DNA of 64,000 bases from Neonectria sp. B-13 (taxonomy: Eukaryota > Ascomycota > Sordariomycetes > Hypocreales > Nectriaceae): NCBI GenBank assembly GCA_002682825.1, contig NOKP01000009.1, positions 372,001 through 436,000 of the forward strand. Reading direction: 5' to 3'. The notes below the pieces were generated by a model that saw only the letters and a program-made list of their open reading frames with translations, searched no databases and had not been told where the DNA came from. The stretch's first letter is position 1, and each line of letters begins with the position of its first letter. Shown piece by piece: positions 27,233 to 32,723 of the stretch. A program made the translations under genes and the position numbers.

Positions 27233-30200
27233 TTAATCCAATCGTTGTTTCTTAGTCTTCAGGCTAGAGCTCTGCTCGGTTGGAGTCTTTGCAGCCCTCT
27301 TGGATGATTGCGACGAGTTGACATCCTCGTGTAAGCCCCTCGTTGGTGTGGCCATCACCGACGTCGTTGTGTACATCATCATGGAGCGTAGTGGGTCGCG
27401 TGGACTGCGTTTTGGATCGACAACGGTGTGTGAGTCGTAGCAACGCCTACAGCTGGGATAGGGGATAATCTGGTCCTCTTTGTCATGGTATTGCGGCAGC
27501 CCGGGGCGTTGCCGCTCCAGGTACTTTTCCTCTATGTCGTCAAAGACGTCATTAATGGCAGTGAAGAAGGTTAGACGAGGCCCGGGCCCGAAGCGTCGGT
27601 TGTGGCCCCAGAGTTGGCCGACGAGAGCGTGGGACTTAACCTCGACGACGACAGCGCCGCTGTCGCCATACGCACCGCAGATACCGGCATTCTCGTCATC
27701 GTAGGGGGTGAAATCCTCAATAAACCACTCTCGCGTAGGCATATCGGTGCCGTTCCCGGCAGCACTTACATACGCGGGGATCTCGCACACTTGACCACGC
27801 CTGTGGCCTGATGTGCGACCAGTAGAGACAACGGTGGCACCTGAGAAAATGACGTTGGTAGTTCTCACAATCAGTTCCTTGTGGGATGGCATGGTGTCGG
27901 ATGGGAGGCGGCGGAGAATATTTGCCTTGCAAGTCTCCGAAGTCATGAGGGTCCAGTCCGTTACGATGCGGGGCGACAGCAGGTGACAATATTCCCAATA
28001 GGGGTTCCTTGAGATGCGGGTTGTTTTGAGGTTTACGCCTGAGGCTGCGGTGATAGTGCCAAGTACACACTTAGCCGAGTCGGGAATGGCATTGTCGTGT
28101 CCTTCGTCGATGCAGCGTGAGCGGTCACTAGGGGAAGGGTGTTGAATAATGACTTTGTCATGATGCTGGCGTGCGTTGACAAAGGGGTGCAGGTTTCCTA
28201 GCCGGAAAGACTTGCCGTCGATGACTAGGCAAGGGCCGAGAGTGGCGGTGCGATCATGCTTCGTACCGCTACGGTTGCCGGCGATGCCGATGCTGTCGCC
28301 CATGCGAGGGTCCGCGAAGTAGTACGGGTTATTGGGGACGCATGTCGTATCGAATATCTCCATGCTGGAGTTCCGGGTCGGAGTGACGCGGTCGACAACA
28401 CCCGCGGCGAAGAAAAAAGTGGTGGTCTGAAGGAACTGCTTGGGTAGGAGATCTCTGACGTGGGCGGCGATGATGAGGCGCCGGGGAAATGTGAGCTTGG
28501 TGTCGGTCATGATGTATATCCGGCGGGAGCCTGGGGTAATGCCGCGGATGATGCTGATGACATGGTGAGGCCCGCACCATCTGGGCAGGAACTCGACGAT
28601 GAAGGGGAGCACGCCGTGCTCCCAGACAATTGGGAAGCTGGTATCTCTGCCCATGATGTCCGCGAGGGCATCTTCTCCTTGCAGCGAGTGGTCTGGTAGA
28701 AATGTCGGATGAGACCACTCGTAGACCGAATCAGGTTTAGAATACATACGGAGTTGCCACTTGAACTTCTCCTTGAAAATATTCATCAGCCGTTCACGAC
28801 ATTTCATCTTGGAGATCGCGGCAGCTAGGACCTCGTGGGTTGCCCGACCCCCCACGGTATTCTCCTGTAAGGAAGCAATGCTGGCAGCACTGCTCTGCGC
28901 CGTGTTCCGGGTGGTCAAATAGAGATTGTCAACGGATTCCTTTCCTGGCGGTTTTTTTGCATCTAGGCTGTACTCTCCTTTAAAGTACCCCAGCAACTCA
29001 GTTGCAATGTCGCTTTGGCGCACTTCAATATGGAACGATATTAGTTTAGATAAAGTCGGCATTGGTTTTGGTAAAGACACGACTGAGTTCCGGAAGCGAT
29101 TCTCTATCTGGTCTATCACGGACGCGAGCGGGCTGATGTAGACCTCTCCGAGAGGATTCAAGGCAACAACAAGGCCGTAAGGAGCGTAACTCTGTGCATC
29201 GACCACGATAGATCCAGAGTCACCCTTCTTCAAACCTTTCATTCATTAGAATACTAAACAGTGAGAGCCGGACGAGTACTTACTGTGCCTTCCCGAGAGA
29301 ATAACAGTCCAAGCATCCGCTGTGCAATTCCCGTTGATGCCGCCGAGAACCGAAGCACCTCGTTGAAGCATCCCCCTCTTTGGCGGCTGTTCCCTTGTGA
29401 GGATGAGGACCGGGGTCTCTTCATTTGGGCAATCCGCAGCTATCGTTGAGAGAAATATAGGGTCCGACGACTTGTTGGGATCAACGAAAGCATTAGGCCG
29501 CCAGTCCCCTGGATCTATCAACTTGATAAGTGCCCAATCCAAGTCTGATTCGCCGCATGATGCAAGTTCGTTTTGTGATGGGAATACTGCGAGCATTTCC
29601 TTGACTTCTGCTGGGATTTTGACTCCGCCTACGTCTCCATATCCAGTTGTTGAGATACTGGCGGGACTGAGTTTGAAAACGTCGCTAGTTTCGTGCTCGT
29701 CATCGGTGTCCTCGTCATTGGTGTCCTCGTCTGTCAAGCTATCATACTCCACATCGTCCATTATATAGTCGTCTTCTTCGGGAGGGTAGCCCAAGGAATC
29801 GTTGTAGAAGTGGGGAATAATTTCTTGGTGCTGGAGAGCACTTGTCGTAGCTTCGAACTCGTCTGACGACTCGGTGGAAACCAAGTTGTTTCGGACAAGC
29901 CCGGTTCCTTCTTGAGACTCAGGTCCTTGGGAGCCACTCCGCCGTAGCTCCAAAGGTCTCACTGCGTGTGATGCTGTTATTCCATAGAACTCCAGGCCTA
30001 TCTGGATAACACAGCCTAGGGTCGAGGACCTGGCGTCACTTCCCACAAGTTCGATGACCGAACCACACATTGTCAAATGAGACAATTTGCTGGAGTATGA
30101 GTCTGACCCAGCTTGCCTTGCTTCAGAGCGAACACAGACCCTCGATGTCGCACCCCACAATAGACTTTTGGGCCTCCGATGGCGCCAGAAATAGAGGTTG

Positions 30201-30913
30201 AATAAAGGCTTGCAAGTCCCTGTCGAGTCTGATGGCTGGTTACCCTGCCAGGGATTCCAGAAACTTTTCCGAGAAGATCGCTGAAGGCAATACTGGAACC
30301 TAAGCTTTTTGCTGGTGAGGAGGTTTCTCAAATAACTGAACTCGCTCTGACGACAGAAAACGAGAATTGACGGGTAGGATGCCTCGGGCGACGGACCGCA
30401 CATTCTTAGGGCATAATCGACATGTTGGACGTATTCTCTCAAACGAGGGTGCTCCTCAGTATTCTCTCTGAAGATGTTGACGACAGCTCGGAACCTCGAG
30501 TGGAACTCATTGTCGATGACCTCACTGCTGTGCGGATAGACGAGCATTGCTGGCGAACATTTGGGAATCGGAGTTGGGTCACGGAATGGGCCGTCGGCGG
30601 GTTCAGCTCCTGGCGAGGCGGTTGCAAGTGTGGTCTGAGATGTGCTGGAGACGGCCTCTATCCCCGTCTGTCCACTAGATGGTGGGCCACTGTTGGAGCT
30701 GGAGTTGGTAGTGGTGGGTGGCGAGAGTGTTGAGTCTGGATTTGGCAATGCGGTGGTTGTAAGTGCTTCTTGGAGAGGGTCACTACTCCGCAAGTCCGTG
30801 GGTACGGGTGATTGTGGAGGGTAACAAGGTGTTATATCTTGTGTACTTTGACCGGCTGGGGAAGCATCTCGAGGACTGGCAAAAGAACGCAACAAGATGG
30901 CATACTTTTGCAT
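27233..30913 (-). CDS. Large protein with two trypsin-like peptidase units
   Basis: Two exons on the minus strand (29284-30913 and 27233-29235), joined by a 48-nt GTAAGT...AAAG intron, give 1210 aa. The intron lies six codons before a GDSG serine motif, so either exon alone would be a broken enzyme. Residues 1-115 are Ser/Thr/Pro-rich. About 120-300 is a folded fungal-specific region (a SILVFCRQSEF strand and a LYFWRHRRPKSLLWG block). The first peptidase unit has GITASHAV (His316), an acidic insert rich in D/E, DLDWALIKL (Asp459) and GDSGSIVV (Ser550). A helical region follows. The second unit shows GNLHPF (His893), TDWTLM (Asp970) and AYGDSGAVVVE (Ser1069). The C-terminus is Lys/Arg-rich, possibly a nuclear signal. 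No signal peptide, so probably intracellular. Trypsin fold is inferred from motif order and spacing. Substrate unknown. Divergent from the 31.5-kb gene. Confidence 0.82.
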
Positions 30914-31532: not shown

Positions 31533-32723
31533 ATGCTGCCACCGAACGATACTGAGCGTCGACAGATAGCCGAAGAAATTTTCGGTGGGACATTCACCAG
31601 TCACGCCAGCGGACCCGAGTTGAAGGCATATTTCCATCACTACATCTCTGTGGTCTGCCCAGCCACCACCCCAGAAGATGTCGTGGTCGACGTCGATACT
31701 TCAACGGTGAAATGCCACTCCGACGTCCTCCGATGCGTGAGAATACTCCGCAAAAACACGAAACTTTGCTTGAACGAATTCATCGCCAAGGCTGTCCACT
31801 CTGACGATGCGAGCCTCAAGGAGAAGGAACACATTGCTAGGATGACAGTCGACATTGCTTTCATGATCAACTGCGGGTTAAAAGACTACCATTCGGATGG
31901 GTTCAAGTGCAGTGATCTAGGGATTGTCAAATGGCAAGGGGATACAACTTTTGTTGGCTTTGTCAAGCAAGCCTTCACGCCGCAACTCACTCCTACAACC
32001 GAGCAGCAACAGAGTAGCCTTGAGGCCATCAAACACAAAAAGGCCCTCAAGGCCTGGAAACTGGGAAAAAGATATGGCATCGAAATCAGGGCCACAAACA
32101 ACTTGCTGGAGCACCTTGCCTACGACCCTACTACGAGGACCCTCAAAGTGTTCCACCAAATGTCCTTTTTGCGAGCGCACTTGCAGCGGACCCGGGACAA
32201 GTCTCTGGACCTCAGCTTCGAGGAGAGCCTAGAACTGCAAGTGATAGTTCCTAGCAGACTGACGATTGCAACGATTGGCTAACGATTTTAACGAGGTAGG
32301 GGAACTCTTCCACCAAGACTGCTCCTCGAGACGCTTCTGACTTTCCACACTATTTTGTTTCCCATAGCTAGCGTAGGAGACAAAAGGTCGCATTCCCTGC
32401 TCAAAAGAATGATTCGGAAGCAAGGATTTGACCAAGAGGGAAAATGGATCGAATATGTCCGGCCTCTCCCATCGGATATGACTTATACGTACTGGGGCGA
32501 CCGTCTAGCCAAACTGTACGAGGTGGTGAAATGCCCACCACCAACAAACTCGGCTGTTGCTTGGTTTGAACGACACACTTCGGAGCGAAATGCGCTTACA
32601 GTAGCTATCGTGGGCCTCTTCCTGGCAGTGCTGTTGGGACTTTTGAGTTTCATTGTTGGGCTTTTGCAGCTAATCGTAGCCTGGATGGCATGGAAGTATC
32701 CTGTGTCGCAGGGGTCTTCATAA
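31533..32723 (+). CDS. Fungal-specific protein with C-terminal membrane hairpin
   Basis: Two exons (31533-32236 and 32300-32723) give 375 aa. The junction restores a continuous SLELGTLPPRLLLETL segment only if the intron starts with GCAAGT and ends in TAG, i.e. a GC-AG intron of 63 nt. No GT donor gives a consistent frame. The N-terminal 240 residues look globular and carry CPATTPEDVVVDVDTSTVKC near residue 45. The C-terminus has WFERHTSERNALTVAIVGLFL followed by a second hydrophobic segment, i.e. two membrane spans in the last 45 residues and a short tail. This matches a widespread filamentous-fungal hypothetical family. Function not known. Topology suggests a cytosolic domain anchored to an internal or plasma membrane. 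Confidence 0.82.

Follow-up and report, generated by a model that had tools for sequence, protein, structure and literature searches.

The rice protease NAL1 and the protease-gasdermin gene clusters of fungi are among the closest described systems to the gene considered here. NAL1 is termed plant-specific in the accessible part of one report, which also states that NAL1 of maize and of rice degrades co-repressors of the TOPLESS type (PMC12915138). In the fungal clusters (HET-Q2/HET-Q1 and CHAT types), an S8 or CHAT protease controls an adjacent gasdermin, and some of the proteases carry fused NLR, TPR or ankyrin parts, as far as the accessible text of two papers describes them (PMC10197012, PMC12881547). 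In this study, a gene for a putative double protease was analysed in a 64,000-nucleotide stretch of Neonectria sp. B-13 (the window; GenBank assembly GCA_002682825.1, contig NOKP01000009.1, positions 372,001 to 436,000), where it lies on the minus strand at positions 27,233 to 30,913. Its two halves appear to be NAL1-type proteases of different families, and it stands head-to-head with a partner gene that is the main clue to its function.

An earlier note, made from the letters of this stretch alone, had described one protein with two catalytic units, and this observation was confirmed: a 48-bp intron, whose signals are good for a fungus (GTAAGT...CTAAT...AG), links the minus-strand open reading frames 30913..29246 and 29242..27233 into one frame of 1210 codons. 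In the relatives L016 and L017, the frame is likewise broken shortly upstream of the first GDSG motif. The catalytic motifs lie in order at the claimed positions, with GITASH316, DLD459WALI and GDS550G in the first half and NLH893PF, TD970WTL and GDS1069G in the second. Searches across fungi, among them a profile search such as the note had proposed, listed relatives of both halves with widely conserved catalytic residues. His, Asp and Ser are each kept in 32/32 aligned relatives of the second half. Among the first-half relatives, 40/41 retain His, 41/41 Asp and 26/41 Ser (13 models stop before the motif and 2 have another letter). Because the three residues are conserved across both alignments, two catalytic sets are more than chance, and both halves would be proteolytically active. 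That one half is a pseudo-protease which only regulates the other seems improbable: the fused second halves do have longer branches in the tree than the majority of stand-alone relatives, but the second-half catalytic residues are kept in every second-type protein aligned, and the Ilyonectria relative P0001 retains all three in both halves at 53% overall identity.

In a predicted structure, the second half adopts a chymotrypsin fold with a double beta-barrel and also shows the NAL1 pre-domain beside it. NAL1 is the closest fold, the match covering 51-441 of the predicted model and 88-452 of NAL1 at 14% identity; searches of PDB sequences with the query (E<=10) and with the second-half family profile (E<=1) listed no NAL1 chain. 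The first half is a homologue of the second by profile comparison (97.8% global, 96.8% local). The fold check suggested earlier came out in favour of the peptidase call for the second half, by model; the first half, as its homologue, would probably share the fold. As the note had anticipated, the protein belongs to no standard annotated family: it has no Pfam match at E<=5, and the relatives scanned against Pfam Trypsin_2 reached at best 19.1 bits, below the 27.6 cut-off. Trypsin specificity goes with an Asp six residues ahead of the catalytic Ser; since the aligned residues of neither half have one there, the specificity implied by the note's term "trypsin-like" is not indicated.

The homologue search listed 37 proteins, counts of relatives being lower bounds because each search scored about 8,000 candidates clustered at 90%. 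Two span both halves, namely Ilyonectria P0001, a fused gene model of 1237 residues across the entire protein, and Neonectria punicea P0002, a fused model without residues ~208-349, His316 among them. The remaining 35 match one half, five the first and 30 the second. Trees of each half were quick searches with support from the Shimodaira-Hasegawa-like approximate likelihood ratio test (SH-aLRT) only, P0037 being omitted from the second-half tree and P0071 from the first-half tree. All fused first halves group in a single clade (support 100), and so do the fused second halves (SH-aLRT 98). The latter clade is nested in a supported group (98) with eight Colletotrichum proteins, a stand-alone copy from the same genome on contig C2 and the relative of that copy in Cylindrodendrum; the tree gives no order among the fused clade, the C2/Cylindrodendrum pair and the Colletotrichum eight, and P0036 and the Pyricularia rows are on long branches. 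Judged by the match pattern and both trees, the halves come from two different families joined by fusion and are no simple tandem duplication. The simplest reading is a single fusion in an ancestor of the three fungi with fused proteins, with the zinc fingers lost: the C2 copy (L015) has a zf-C2H2 match just below cut-off in an upstream exon, and the stand-alone Colletotrichum P0004 has N-terminal C2H2 fingers by eye. The 35 single-half relatives might instead point to two separate genes wrongly joined by gene model or assembly, but this has next to no probability, given the fused models in Ilyonectria and Neonectria punicea, the monophyly of the fused halves in both trees and a single open exon of 669 codons. 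The fusion is independent of splicing, as the first GDSG motif and the entire second half lie in this uninterrupted exon. Three second-type relatives (P0003, P0006, P0014) carry the public name "DNA polymerase epsilon subunit 1"; they match the protease half and have no precomputed Pfam domain, and the names look misassigned.

The partner gene (31533-32723, plus strand), which the note had overlooked, begins 619 bp from the protease start and encodes 375 residues if a GC-AG intron is accepted. No match to the partner was found in Pfam or among solved structures. For P0073, the partner in Ilyonectria, the predicted model consists of helices and three short strands (predicted local distance difference test score, 87), and the partner would be a helical protein anchored in the membrane by one C-terminal helix. 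Partner homologues (E 3e-56 and 2e-37) stand head-to-head with proteases on contigs C53 and C52 of the same genome, and a wider search found two more stop-free pairs, at C52:714-718k and on C38. Every one of the stop-free partner genes found, at least five, is paired with a protease ~224-816 bp away, where some distances are measured from non-ATG frame starts, "stop-free" means no stop within matched exons, and the second C52 partner is counted without an exon model. Because these searches score the best candidates, further copies may exist. Between loci, the proteases share 15-27% identity and the partners 17-37%.

Decayed copies were also detected. On C57, an open protease gene with a GATA finger stands beside a partner fragment; C39:5553718-5554484 holds degraded protease and partner fragments, head-to-head; C51:279521-279721 is a partner relic, as is C42:67978-68808, where no protease was detected in the 9.9 kb searched. 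The degraded C39, C42 and C51 copies are read as turnover of the module. These relics bear on a different role for the partner, that of a membrane anchor or inhibitor which keeps the protease inactive in an antitoxin- or scaffold-like manner, so that partner loss, not cleavage, frees it. Such a role would suit head-to-head genes whose shared intergenic region could balance both products, and a partner predicted to be membrane-anchored, but the C57 protease gene is still open next to a mere fragment, and the C42 relic has no detected protease. This objection is weak because other partner copies could compensate; on the whole, we consider the anchor or inhibitor role rather unlikely. On C114, C57 and C38, each match occurs twice at mirror positions (for C114, 402097+1174096=1576193, the total nucleotides + 1); these contigs appear to be inverted duplications, exact in both copies, which probably arose as an artefact of the assembly, and their doubled matches were counted once.

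Outside this genome, at least 85 partner relatives are listed, most of them by name from Sordariomycetes, with others from Aspergillus, Alternaria, Bipolaris, Oculimacula and further genera. A contig of exactly equal length, taken as the same contig, holds a partner relative for 14/41 first-type and 0/30 second-type proteins (Fisher p 1.5e-4), a comparison in which P0001 and P0002 count as first-type only, the 14/41 is drawn from lower-bound lists, and sharing depends on which contig heads a 90% cluster. By chance, ~0.6-1.2 first-type and 0.9-1.9 second-type cases would be expected (Poisson, assuming that each genome of 30-60 Mb has one partner at a random position); the zero is therefore a modest control, and the first-type excess is the evidence. 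A shared contig by itself is not proof of adjacency. Protease and partner carry consecutive locus tags in Ilyonectria (597531/597532), Neonectria punicea (008708/008707), Fusarium decemcellulare (g2256/g2257) and F. fujikuroi (13313/13314). On these gene orders, the protease-partner linkage is conserved across species and paralogues.

The first-type family often carries other modules. The profile search listed 40 first-type proteins, six already known, giving 41 when combined with the homologue search. Their extra Pfam parts include NB-ARC (P0055), ankyrin repeats (P0062), RRM (P0045) and zinc knuckles (P0042); a protein kinase is fused in P0032 and P0034 and, by precomputed annotation, in P0035; many others have no further Pfam domain. 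Relatives within the genome carry TPRs (C53), a GATA finger (C57), or ankyrin repeats and RRM (C38). Several relatives from this genome have Cys for the catalytic Ser (GECG on C53; GDCG at the second C52 locus and on C57 and C38); by eye, His and Asp are at the expected places. Cysteine nucleophiles occur among PA-clan proteases, and the variants are regarded as putative proteases. As the pair recurs, sometimes with immune-receptor-like parts, it suggests a module, as yet undescribed, in which a protease would serve signalling or defence.

Individual loci illustrate this variety. At L018:2312-5110 (C57), a single open reading frame combines the GDCG protease and GATA zinc finger, with a HET-domain frame downstream and the partner fragment upstream. 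GDCG proteases at L049:1697-4312 and L048:4402-8333 are each head-to-head with a partner gene; one is fused to ankyrin repeats and RRM, and in the other the sequence after the protease has no Pfam match but looks by eye like the kinase/vWA-like tails found in Fusarium relatives. At L019:304-3953 (C1, ~1061.8-1065.5k), one 56-bp intron with good signals connects a HeLo (prion-inhibition) frame to that of a NAL1-like protease, which gives 1197 residues; this more distant relative has a kinase-like stretch by eye. No partner was found in the 7-kb stretches searched for the C1 HeLo-protease and the C2 second-type protease.

It is only our impression from the sequence that the double protease lacks a signal peptide; it would be intracellular. 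The Lys/Arg-rich tail reported earlier is present, and it looks like a nuclear signal inherited from the zinc-finger protease family: a bipartite pattern of our own devising is matched by 21/32 second-type tails, two of these from fused proteins. A basic tail common to the second-type family points to the nucleus. The note's guess at a regulated, immune-type protease was a good lead in view of the NB-ARC, ankyrin, TPR and kinase fusions of first-half relatives, but its "cytosolic" location is doubtful because the tail resembles an inherited nuclear signal. The main rival explanation starts here: the protein may be a nuclear gene regulator like plant NAL1, degrading co-repressors or other nuclear proteins, with the partner merely co-regulated. 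NAL1 is the closest fold and, in the accessible text, degrades TOPLESS-type co-repressors (PMC12915138); the second half derives from a C2H2-protease family with nuclear-signal-like tails, and a further relative has a fused GATA finger. A predicted membrane helix in the partner, the absence of partner contigs among the 30 second-type proteases, and the NB-ARC, ankyrin or TPR modules of several first-type relatives, atypical for gene regulators, speak against this role, which we hold to be doubtful.

The fusion, both catalytic sets, the second-half fold, the homology of the halves and the partner linkage are established by sequence or model. The best explanation of the whole, to which we give somewhat less than even confidence, is a double protease whose C-terminal part frees the first protease to act on the membrane partner in a defence or cell-death response. 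The protein would be intracellular and consist of two NAL1-type (PA-clan, chymotrypsin-fold) serine proteases, a "module" protease fused to one copied from a family that is C2H2-zinc-finger-associated and probably nuclear; the latter would occupy the C-terminal position where relatives have sensor-like or regulatory domains. The first half would be one arm of a two-gene module and the head-to-head membrane partner the other. Most probably, the variable C-terminal part (in this protein the second protease) would sense a signal that frees the first protease, which would then cut or otherwise act on the partner. Action on a tail-anchored partner is suggested by analogy, because the layout is that of fungal protease-gasdermin clusters. 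What follows could be a response linked to the membrane, for instance defence signalling or regulated cell death. The second protease could release the first half by cleavage, as a cascade within one chain, or serve as bait for attackers of nuclear proteases. We suggest more tentatively that ascomycetes possess an undescribed immune-type module in which a NAL1-like serine (in some cases cysteine) protease with interchangeable sensors (NB-ARC, ankyrin, TPR, kinase, RRM, GATA) would control a new-fold, tail-anchored partner, a nuclear-type protease here taking the sensor's place as bait or cascade start.

Coordinates of the two genes are collected in Table 1. Domain boundaries along the 1210-residue protein were set by us; residues 1-106 are a low-complexity N-terminus, and residues 613-722 a variable linker between the proteases with 35% identity to Ilyonectria.

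Table 1. Features of the double-protease gene and its partner, in window positions
Feature	Positions	Strand	Remarks
Exon 1, double-protease gene	29284..30913	-	residues 1-543 and first base of codon 544
Double-protease intron, 48 bp	29236..29283	-	directly upstream of first GDSG
Exon 2, double-protease gene	27233..29235	-	first protease's catalytic Ser, linker, entire second protease, stop codon
First-half pre-domain, residues ~107-272	30098..30595	-	72% identity to Ilyonectria P0001
First protease, His side, residues 273-335	29909..30097	-	His316 codon 29968-29966
Acidic insert in first protease, residues 336-445	29579..29908	-	28/110 Asp/Glu, 4/110 Lys/Arg
First protease, Asp-Ser side, residues 446-612	29030..29578	-	Asp459 codon 29539-29537, Ser550 codon 29218-29216
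Second-half pre-domain, residues ~723-835	28361..28699	-	mostly within NAL1 match span
Second protease, residues ~836-1128	27482..28360	-	codons His893 28189-28187, Asp970 27958-27956, Ser1069 27661-27659
C-terminal tail, residues 1129-1210	27236..27481	-	ends with bipartite nuclear-signal-like KR...KKQR
Intergenic space, 619 bp, between divergent start codons	30914..31532	.	double protease and partner gene
Partner exon 1	31533..32236	+	
Proposed partner intron, GC-AG type	32237..32299	+	GCAAGT...GGTAG; same place as GT-AG introns of L016, L017 partners
Partner exon 2	32300..32723	+	juxtamembrane ERHTSERNALT motif, predicted C-terminal membrane helix ~32568-32696

If the pairing is functional, it would add to the gasdermin pairs of S8 and CHAT proteases a further fungal protease-plus-partner class, whose fold has until now been described as that of plant NAL1, and a set of "hypothetical" fungal genes would gain a testable role. 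The fused double protease would exemplify, in nature, the use of one protease as the control domain of another. In the open-access literature, we found no recognisable description of the protease family or of the protease-partner pair. The fold class and the gene-pair style are already known; the combination and the partner were not found described.

Among known systems, yeast HtrA/Nma111 is a nuclear double protease, intracellular and with two chymotrypsin-fold domains; unlike it, the present protein has no PDZ or Trypsin_2 match at E<=5, and the two loci found in this genome above the Trypsin_2 cut-off lie elsewhere, on C32 and C39. The gasdermin fold is a beta-rich, pore-forming domain, unlike the helical partner model; it is the model that tells the two apart, since the lack of a structure match would not be enough by itself. 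Bacterial conflict systems, as far as their description is accessible, pair trypsin-like peptidases with a frequent neighbour, Trypco, and peptidase cascades have been proposed for them (PMC7159879); by this description they resemble the present pair, but they are bacterial and come with NTPases. A second paper on conflict systems likewise treats trypsin-like peptidases of bacteria. In P0055 from Annulohypoxylon, the first-half protease lies N-terminal to NB-ARC, as in fungal NLRs with enzymatic N-terminal domains; the accessible parts of the 2014 and 2022 fungal NLR surveys list Peptidase_S8 and no trypsin-like effector, and the double protease itself has no NACHT/NB-ARC or other nucleotide-binding domain in Pfam at E<=5. 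Like rice NAL1 (PDB 8pmi, 8pn2, 7y77, 8hau), the second half is by model a chymotrypsin-fold serine protease after a preceding domain; unlike NAL1, there are two proteases per chain, plus a paired gene. As in the protease-gasdermin clusters, where most proteases belong to the S8 subtilisins or the CHAT caspase-like enzymes in the accounts accessible, the protease gene adjoins one partner, in the window and in four further pairs of this genome; unlike there, the protease is PA-clan and NAL1-like.
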